Shown in pieces: positions 6,351 to 8,525 of a stretch of DNA of 8,922 nt. The position numbers and the translations under genes were made by a program. The stretch lies in NCBI GenBank assembly GCA_001797815.1, contig MGQK01000067.1, positions 32,786-41,707 of the forward strand. The letters run 5' to 3'. The notes beneath the pieces are model-generated. The model was given only the letters and a program-made list of their open reading frames with translations. It was not told where the DNA came from and did no database searches. This DNA comes from Deltaproteobacteria bacterium RBG_13_61_14. GTDB taxonomy: Bacteria; RBG-13-61-14. Numbering within the stretch: the stretch's first letter is position 1; every line of letters begins with the position of its first letter.

Positions 6351-7388
6351 ATGGCCCTGATCGAAATTGACGGCAGTTTCGGCGAGGGCGGCGGCCAGAT
6401 CCTCCGCACCGCCCTCAGCTTGAGCGCGATCACCGGCGCGCCCTTTCACATCTTCAACCTCCGCAAGGGCCGGGCCAAGCCCGGGCTAAAGCGCCAGCAC
6501 CTGGCCTGCGTCAAAGCCGCCGGCGAAATCACCTCGGCCTTTTGCCAGGGCGCGGAGCTGGGTTCCCTGGAACTTCACTTCGAGCCAAAAGCCATCCGGT
6601 TCGGCTCTTACTCCTTTGCCATCGGCACCGCCGGCTCCACCACCCTGCTCTTGCAGACCATCCTCCCGATTCTGGCAATGGCGGCCGAGCCTTCGCAAGT
6701 CATTCTCCACGGCGGCACCCACAACCCCATGGCCCCGCCGGTGGATTACCTGCTTGAGGTCTTCCGGCCGGCCGTGGCCGGCCTGGGGATAAATTTTGAC
6801 CTGGAACTGATTCAGCATGGTTTCTATCCCAAAGGCGGGGGCTCGATTCGCGCTCGGGTGCAACCCTGGCCGGAGCGGGATCTGGCCTTCGAACAAACCC
6901 GGCTTGGGGACTGGGGCGAGCCTTTAGCCTCGGTGCTCCTGGCCAACCTTCCGGCCAGCGTGGCCGAGCGGGAGCAGAAGGAACTGGCGCGGGCGCTCCG
7001 GATTCCGCTGGACCGGATCGAGATCCAGGTCCTGCCCGGAGAGGTGGGCCCGGGCAATGCGGTAATGGTCCGCTTTCAGGCCGAGGGCCGCACCGTGCTG
7101 TTCACCGCGTTCGGGGAGAAGCACAAGCGCGCGGAGATCGTAGCCAAGGAAGCGGCGCGGGAAGCCAAGCTCTTTGCCCGCTCGCGCGCGCCGGTGGACC
7201 ATCACCTGGCCGACCAGATCCTGCTCTACCTGGCCCTGGGCCGGGGCGGAAGGTTCCTGACCGATGCCGTCACCGAGCACGCCCGCACCAACCTGGAGGT
7301 GATCCGCCAATTCCTGCCGCTGAATTCCTCGTTCTCTTCCCTGCGGCCGGACCTCTGGGAAGTCCGCCTCGAAGTCGAAAAATCTTGA
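6351..7388 (+). CDS. rtcA: RNA 3'-terminal phosphate cyclase
   Basis: Converts an RNA 3'-phosphate to a 2',3'-cyclic phosphate using ATP, through enzyme-AMP and RNA-AMP intermediates; cytoplasmic RNA end repair or processing. The 345-aa length is close to the 338 aa of E. coli RtcA. The N-terminus shows IDGSFGEGGGQILRTALSLS (residues 6-25), the family signature with Glu12. It continues with NLRKGRAKPGLKRQH (36-50), GTAGSTTLLLQT, the family-specific GGTHNPMAPPVDYL, and FYPKGGG. The C-terminal motif DAVTEHARTNLEVI places His310 at the position of the adenylated E. coli His309. All key segments are present, so it is likely active; the separate EPSP-synthase-like relative Rcl1 lacks this histidine. 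No Shine-Dalgarno is evident before the ATG. Neither rtcB nor the regulator rtcR is in the window. A foldback repeat begins at the last base of its stop codon. Confidence 0.95.
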   Translation: MALIEIDGSFGEGGGQILRTALSLSAITGAPFHIFNLRKGRAKPGLKRQHLACVKAAGEITSAFCQGAELGSLELHFEPKAIRFGSYSFAIGTAGSTTLLLQTILPILAMAAEPSQVILHGGTHNPMAPPVDYLLEVFRPAVAGLGINFDLELIQHGFYPKGGGSIRARVQPWPERDLAFEQTRLGDWGEPLASVLLANLPASVAEREQKELARALRIPLDRIEIQVLPGEVGPGNAVMVRFQAEGRTVLFTAFGEKHKRAEIVAKEAAREAKLFARSRAPVDHHLADQILLYLALGRGGRFLTDAVTEHARTNLEVIRQFLPLNSSFSSLRPDLWEVRLEVEKS

Positions 7389-7535
7389 ACCACAGAGACA
7401 CAGAGAGCACAGAGAAAGATTATCTTGGGTTTCTGAGCTGCGCTGCCCGCAGCAGAGTGGCTCGAATCTCTGGGCAGTTTCTTTGAGCGAAATTAACTCC
7501 TTTTTCACTCCGTGCTCTCTGTGTGCTCTGTGTTT
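7388..7535. repeat. Foldback element with CACAGAG-type inverted arms
   Basis: The left arm at 7388-7418 reads AACCACAGAGACACAGAGAG then CACAGAGAAAG. The right arm at 7502-7535 is its imperfect reverse complement (its complement reads AAACACAGAGCACACAGAGA then GCACGGAG). About 83 nt lie between them, with a small internal hairpin GCTGCG/CGCAGC (7437-7453). No open frame of note lies inside. The element touches the rtcA stop codon. It looks like a miniature non-coding element; as RNA it would form a long imperfect stem that could end or protect the rtcA transcript. Confidence 0.75.
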
Positions 7536-7556
7536 GATCTTCTTTTTCCTCCCCTG

Positions 7557-7631
7557 GTCAAAAATTTGACATTTCGCTCAATCCTGGTAAATTGAATTTA
7601 GGTCAATTTTGACCCTGGCGCAGGATTGAGC
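7557..7631. promoter_or_regulatory. Promoter-like pair flanked by two related dyads and an 11-bp inverted repeat
   Basis: A -35 TTGACA (7566-7571), a 16-nt spacer and a -10 TAAATT (7588-7593) predict transcription from about 7600 toward the lipoprotein gene. Dyad one is GTCAAA-AA-TTTGAC (7557-7570), over the -35. Dyad two is GGTCAA-TT-TTGACC (7601-7614), at the start site. The half-sites are alike and the centres are 44 nt apart, as expected for two operator sites of one dimeric regulator. A perfect 11-bp inverted repeat GCTCAATCCTG (7576-7586) and CAGGATTGAGC (7621-7631) encloses dyad two. A further 7-bp dyad AAATTGA/TCAATTT (7589-7609) overlaps it. The dyads are direct observations; promoter and operator roles are inferred. 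Confidence 0.45.
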
Positions 7632-7640
7632 CAGCCCAAG

Positions 7641-7703
7641 TTGAGGGAGCAACGCGAACCTTGAAAGGAGGTTCGAGGGACCTACGCTCCCTCGAAAAGT
7701 TTC
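7641..7703 (+). promoter_or_regulatory. Structured translation-initiation leader with mutually exclusive hairpins
   Basis: AAAGGAGG (7664-7671) is the only strong Shine-Dalgarno, yet it ends 32 nt before the ATG at 7704. A perfect 9-bp hairpin, TTCGAGGGA (7672-7680) with TCCCTCGAA (7688-7696), fills that gap and would leave only 7 unpaired nt between itself and the ATG. A competing hairpin, CGAACCT (7655-7661) with AGGTTCG (7669-7675), pairs half of the Shine-Dalgarno. It can nest inside a third helix, TTGAGGGAGC (7641-7650) with 7686-7695 (one G-U pair). The third helix and the 9-bp hairpin use the same bases and cannot coexist. This gives a plausible open and a closed state. A REP-like palindromic repeat is the alternative explanation. 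Confidence 0.5.
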
Positions 7704-8525
7704 ATGAAACAATTGATCGTGACGATTCTGGCGCTCGGCCTGCTCGGCGCTTGTGCGCCCCGGCAGCAACGCGCCCTGGAAAAGGCCGTCCGTCAAAATC
7801 CTGACTCGGCTGCCGCTCACCTGGCGCTGGGCCGCTACTGCTTCCAGACCGGCCAGTATGATGGCGCGCTGGAACACTACCGCTCCGCGGTGAGCCTGGC
7901 CCCGGCCGACCCGGCCGGCCGCAGCGAATACGGCCACCTGCTTTACTTCACCTGTCATTATGATGATGCGCTGGTGCAATACCGGATGGCCCTGATGCAG
8001 AACCCCGAAGATCCACGGCTGCACCTCTGGCTCGGCAACCTCTACGGCTTTTTAGCCCGCGACCGGGAAGCCGAGGCCGAATACCTCTGGCTGGCCCGAG
8101 AGGACCCGAAGGATCCCGAGCCTTACCTGATGCTGGGCAGCCTCTACGGCGCCAGCCGCAACTGGGGCCAGGCCGCCCTGGCCTATCGCCAGGCCATTGC
8201 CCGAAGCCCGCGGGATAAGTCGCTCTGGATGATTTTGGGTAATACCTATGCCGCGGCCGGACAAGCTCCGGAGGCGGAGTCGGCCTACCGGAGCGCGCTC
8301 GCTCTCGACCCGGAGAATGCCGAGGCCTGGACCTGCCTGGGCCAGCTTCACTTGTCCATGCGGGATTGGAAGGAAGCCTCGGCGGACTTTACCGCGGCGC
8401 TGCTGGCCGATCCCAAGCGCGCCGACGCCAAGCAGGGTTTAGCCCTGGCCCTGACCAAGCTCCAGGACCAGGCCCAGGGAAGAGTCCGCACCGGCCAGGC
8501 CGAAAGACCGAGCGCCGGATTCTGA
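7704..8525 (+). CDS. TPR-repeat lipoprotein
   Basis: A 273-aa membrane-anchored tetratricopeptide protein, probably a protein-protein interaction scaffold in the envelope; partner unknown. The signal is short, MKQLIVTILALGLLGAC, with a lipobox LGAC and lipidated Cys17. Residue +2 is Ala, which in the E. coli rule favours outer-membrane sorting. After a single helix (21-33) come six TPR units of exactly 34 residues each (34-67, 68-101, 102-135, 136-169, 170-203, 204-237). All end in Pro, and most have Gly at position 10 and the Tyr/Phe and Ala positions of the family. A polar tail follows (238-273). The start is fixed by the lipoprotein signal. The gene follows a 315-nt structured intergenic region and is convergent, 20 nt apart, with the DUF169 gene. 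PilF/NlpI-type or outer-membrane assembly roles are possible but not shown. Confidence 0.88.
   Translation: MKQLIVTILALGLLGACAPRQQRALEKAVRQNPDSAAAHLALGRYCFQTGQYDGALEHYRSAVSLAPADPAGRSEYGHLLYFTCHYDDALVQYRMALMQNPEDPRLHLWLGNLYGFLARDREAEAEYLWLAREDPKDPEPYLMLGSLYGASRNWGQAALAYRQAIARSPRDKSLWMILGNTYAAAGQAPEAESAYRSALALDPENAEAWTCLGQLHLSMRDWKEASADFTAALLADPKRADAKQGLALALTKLQDQAQGRVRTGQAERPSAGF

Follow-up and report, generated by a model that had tools for sequence, protein, structure and literature searches.

How might translation begin at a gene whose strong Shine-Dalgarno (SD)-like sequence lies far upstream of its start codon? This question is raised by a leader in the intergenic stretch 7389–7703, between rtcA and a gene for a TPR-repeat lipoprotein, in a window (the whole stretch of DNA analysed here, 8,922 nt) that originates from a 4.74-Mb draft assembly. 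The first-pass annotation had read this leader as a two-state translational switch, with a spacer hairpin that bridges SD and ATG in one state and a nested, competing fold in the other. The elements concerned are the following:

6351–7388: rtcA (RNA 3′-terminal phosphate cyclase), the gene upstream of the leader
7566–7593, forward strand: predicted sigma-70-like promoter (TTGACA, 16 nt, TAAATT) from a consensus scan
7641–7650, forward strand: 5′ arm UUGAGGGAGC of the outer closing helix, pairing with 7686–7695 in the minimum-free-energy fold
7655–7675, forward strand: inner hairpin CGAACCUU-GAAAG-GAGGUUCG, in which the GAGG half of the SD is paired (pair probability ~0.91)
7664–7671, forward strand: SD-like AAAGGAGG, read from the sequence, 32 nt upstream of the ATG at 7704
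7672–7696, forward strand: perfect 9-bp spacer hairpin, arms TTCGAGGGA (7672–7680) and TCCCTCGAA (7688–7696), a possible bridge
7686–7695, forward strand: 3′ arm used by outer helix and bridging hairpin alike, from an inverted-repeat listing and folding
7704–8525, forward strand: gene for the TPR-repeat lipoprotein, 273 aa, N-terminus MKQLIVTILALGLLGAC, a signal peptide with lipobox

The ATG at 7704 is well supported because the lipoprotein signal is a textbook one and the upstream frame is closed (by direct reading, it ends at TGA 7662–7664) and offers no other start codon. The best protein matches to the lipoprotein are generic TPR proteins (21–39% identity), and every match to an NCBIfam model fell under the cut-off. 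The start codon itself sits inside a 12-bp palindrome (GTTTCATGAAAC, 7699–7710).

Much of the geometry in the first-pass annotation stood up. Reading the sequence confirmed the coordinates of the distant SD and found no ATG, GTG or TTG at a spacing of 4–12 nt from it. The perfect hairpin invoked to shorten the gap is likewise present; it has a 7-nt loop (CCUACGC) and would leave 7 nt to the ATG. Shuffling the 32-nt spacer 200,000 times gave a perfect 9-bp hairpin in 59 cases, and shuffling the 104-nt leader 20,000 times gave one in 52; this rarity argues that a spacer hairpin at that spot is not noise. The two helices said to nest together and shut out the bridge, an outer one of 10 pairs (7641–7650/7686–7695; one G–U, central pair probabilities at least 0.99) and an inner one of 8 pairs (7655–7662/7668–7675; one G–U), form the predicted minimum fold and mask the GAGG half of the SD. 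The outer helix does exclude the bridge, but the inner one is excluded only in part, a remnant of 5 bp being compatible with bridging. Near-copies at 7640–7655 (GTTGAGGGAGCAACGC) and 7671–7687 (GTTCGAGGGACCTACGC) can either of them pair with GCTCCCTCGAA at 7686–7696, and because these two 5′ partners share one 3′ arm, the outer helix and the bridge cannot coexist.

Which of the competing folds would a native transcript adopt? The predicted promoter agrees with the consensus at 10 of 12 positions, carries a TG before its −10 element and places the transcript start near 7600; the scan gave three promoter-like sites in the window versus 1.6 expected, and none between 7600 and 7660; a match alone is no proof. 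With a start near 7600 from the nearest promoter-like site, the leader would thus be closed. The closed fold compares with the bridge-forced one at −27.7 versus −22.5 kcal/mol for 7635–7720, −42.7 versus −37.6 kcal/mol for 7600–7720, and −42.2 versus −35.5 kcal/mol for 7600–7700. A gap of 5–7 kcal/mol means that the two near-equal minima anticipated for a switch do not exist. In agreement, the bridge probability did not exceed 0.003 with 5′ ends anywhere from 7595 to 7642, that is, as long as the outer 5′ arm was kept, at most 0.001 in the full leader, and at most 0.05 across 5 to 75 °C. The fold was nearly constant over this temperature range, and an RNA thermometer was rejected.

Accessibility of the SD followed the inner helix. 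Within 7600–7720, GAGG was unpaired with a probability of ~0.09–0.095 and the AUG with 0.93; the longer folds 7600–7760 and 7600–7990, which include more coding sequence, predict a paired AUG. Even with the bridge forced, GAGG remained paired in the 5-bp remnant of the inner helix, so the proposed open state leaves the SD unexposed. Likewise, for 5′ ends at 7648–7656, from which the outer 5′ arm is gone, the bridge reached 0.88–0.96 with GAGG 95% paired. Only 5′ ends from about 7660 onward combined a bridge probability of ~1.0 with a free SD (~0.95 at 7660–7662; 0.44 at 7664). Clearing 7694–7719 alone would cost 3.3 kcal/mol, and opening both SD and AUG with the bridge in place ~12.1 kcal/mol, as compared to ~−13.2 kcal/mol for the SD:anti-SD duplex if a standard anti-SD is assumed (the assembly lacks the 16S 3′ end).

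How unusual is such a leader in its own genome? We sampled 769 kb of stretches from the same genome, with a home-made, conservative gene calling that makes the start statistics approximate. SD cores peaked 6–8 nt before starts, indicating that SDs are in use in this genome. Of 274 defined ATG starts, 69 were preceded by a properly spaced strong SD (in a stricter set, 25 of 85) and 15 had a distant SD only; the TPR lipoprotein start alone among these 15 had a spacer stem exceeding 6 bp. The sample holds 25 intergenic copies of AAAGGAGG, ~15 of them 4–9 nt before the ATG of an open frame. Perfect hairpins numbered 70 in 235 kb of intergenic DNA, 13 of 273 ATG starts (5%) had a perfect stem of 8 bp or more in the 45 nt upstream, and 22 of 140 intergenic perfect hairpins (16%, both strands counted) had a 5′ competitor able to form 8 or more pairs. 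In stability, the leader ranked 34th among 273 starts and 16th after GC correction (z −1.7). Under independence, a far SD and a stem should coincide about 0.7 times in the sample (13 × 15/273); demanding that the hairpin abut the SD should, by rough inference, make this several-fold rarer, with about one or fewer cases in the whole genome. The layout is uncommon, yet within the yield of a hairpin-rich genome, and the combination is near genome-wide chance. On the likelier reading, that of an everyday folded leader, it can serve as a worked base rate: such a genome gives layouts of this kind without any switch.

With moderate confidence, we consider the best explanation to be a structured 5′ leader of an ordinary kind, its SD partly sequestered. 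A transcript from near 7600 would fold into a stable nested hairpin (7641–7695) that takes up GAGG, half of the strong SD-like sequence, and would leave the AUG just 3′ of the stem free, as predicted for short transcripts. Low translation of the TPR lipoprotein would be the likely outcome, with initiation occurring either without an SD, which appears common in this genome, or on those occasions when the stem is opened by a ribosome or another factor, so that the 9-bp hairpin can bridge SD and AUG. The leader elements, fold energies and frequency of SD-less starts come from sequence and computation; the promoter, the low translation and the initiation route are what we infer. The closed-fold energies, the low bridge probability (at most 0.003), the mostly paired GAGG and free AUG within 7600–7720, the 3.3 kcal/mol cost of clearing 7694–7719, the small share of well-spaced SDs, the commonness of hairpins and of competing partners, and the unexceptional stability tend to favor this explanation. 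Against it, the strong 8-mer, when intergenic in this genome, is usually a working SD, and the 9-bp hairpin fills the gap exactly, down to 7 nt, the only such case among the 15 far-SD starts. Moreover, the predicted pairing with the anti-SD could cover the cost of opening, and the AUG is predicted to be paired in the longer folds.

A rival explanation is that the leader is a split ribosome-binding site like those of phage T4 genes 25 and 38, in which the 9-bp hairpin of the leader would join SD and AUG at initiation, driven by the ribosome or by a short transcript and with no regulated switch. The T4 parallel drawn by the first-pass annotation is genuine, albeit for bridging alone: spacer structures cut the SD–AUG spacing from 27 to 11 nt in gene 25 and from 22 to 5 nt in gene 38, and the bridges are backed by reporters, probing and conservation (Nivinskas 1999, Malys and Nivinskas 2009, as summarised in PMC3014915, the only account of split sites that our literature search returned). 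The leader shares with these genes the overlong gap (32 nt here), the lack of a normally spaced start codon and a hairpin that would reduce the spacing (to 7 nt). Unlike in T4, the bridge is outcompeted by a more stable fold, the SD is half paired and no conservation was found; the spacer hairpin is the adopted fold with a free SD only for 5′ ends from about 7660 onward. Since ~−13.2 kcal/mol could pay for ~12.1 kcal/mol, a ribosome might drive bridged initiation, and transcripts beginning at or after 7660 should bridge almost fully with GAGG ~0.95 free (0.44 at 7664). Set against this are the lack of promoter-like sites between 7600 and 7660, a bridge probability of at most 0.001 in the full leader, and an anti-SD that is unreadable in this assembly. 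We regard a split site as unlikely, bridging being a live minority option and the two-state switch scoring low. Were bridging true, the arrangement of genes 25 and 38 would also exist in a bacterial chromosomal gene, there with a built-in off state. The fuller version of this proposal—a chromosomal, hairpin-bridged split site shut by the nested competing fold and opened when the 5′ end is truncated, a ribosome invades or a trans factor acts—appears quite improbable.

As modelled, the native leader resembles another class of T4 leaders more closely than the bridging type, namely the sequestering hairpins of gene e, soc, 49 and I-TevI (PMC3014915). As in those, the SD lies in a helix of the long transcript and would become free in a shorter one without the 5′ arm; unlike in those, only half of the SD is paired, and no second promoter for a short transcript was found. 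SD-independent initiation at unstructured starts, the subject of PMC3121790, offers a further comparison: most defined starts in our sample have no well-spaced strong SD, and the AUG studied here is predicted to be open in short transcripts; the difference is that this leader also carries a strong SD-like octamer.

Could a trans-acting signal flip the closed into the bridged fold? Conceivable agents are CsrA or another protein, small RNAs, and ribosomes translating a short upstream frame: the genome has two csrA genes, a TTG-started frame ending at TGA 7662–7664 could place ribosomes on the 5′ arms, and the near-repeats (7640–7655 and 7671–7687) make the outer and bridging helices mutually exclusive. 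However, a switch calls for one fold that exposes and another that hides the SD, and here the folds lie 5–7 kcal/mol apart with GAGG paired in both, exposure occurring only when the inner 5′ arm is removed as well. The TTG frame has no preceding SD, 16% of the intergenic hairpins in the sample have a competing partner, and no conserved leader was detected. Besides, the window matched no Rfam family at the gathering threshold and thus contains no ligand-binding domain of a known kind. The two-state control claimed by the first-pass annotation has accordingly fared poorly, and we find regulation of this sort quite improbable. Another improbable account gives the palindromes no translational role: they would act at the DNA level, with GAGGGA/TCCCTC as operator half-sites, or be neutral, and the SD-like octamer would be incidental. 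The stretch 7389–7703 is indeed rich in inverted repeats (a CACAGAG element, 7556–7571, 7601–7614 and 7576–7586/7621–7631), and ~10 of the 25 intergenic AAAGGAGG copies lie away from SD distance. Conversely, the palindrome occurs once in the genome, so that no regulon of such sites is seen, and the octamer is within the leader of a real gene.

The same single occurrence settles what the hairpin is not. Allowing up to three mismatches, the spacer palindrome has one copy in the 4.74-Mb genome, and its own locus is the sole match of the 151-nt leader. Hence, although it resembles a REP in being a perfect intergenic hairpin, it is no REP or other repeated palindrome, a possibility that the first-pass annotation had named as fatal to its reading. 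An intrinsic terminator was ruled out as well, for no T-run follows the hairpin. Among 60 relatives, no DNA match to the leader was found, nor an orthologous leader in these or in three genomes of the phylum. RtcA orthologues are present in both relatives of the phylum, with the downstream lipoprotein absent from the flank seen. Within the order, the TPR lipoprotein nearest to this one (L009, 29% identity) carries GAGGGGG just before its ATG, at a normal distance; as its orthology is uncertain, it was left uncounted.

Further repeats surround the leader. A dispersed element with CACAGAG-type inverted ends (7387–7535) begins at the rtcA stop codon and has 44 matches in the genome; its facing end pairs are mostly 88–139 bp and sometimes 560–1770 bp apart in the sample, giving it a MITE-like character with a variable interior. 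The related palindromes GGTCAAAAATTTGACA (7556–7571) and GGTCAATTTTGACC (7601–7614) flank the predicted promoter, 44 bp from centre to centre, and are possible operators; their GGTCAA-TTTGAC pattern has six matches genome-wide and thus points to no clear regulon. Two perfect 11-bp inverted repeats (7576–7586/7621–7631 and 7483–7493/7571–7581) share the promoter segment ATTTCGCTCAATCCTG. Elsewhere in the genome (L131:426–1737), the end of a sigma-factor-like frame is followed by a tandem duplication in the order flgM-like/csrA/flgM-like/csrA, with FlgM and CsrA assigned by Pfam and 467 of 569 aligned columns identical between the duplicated units.
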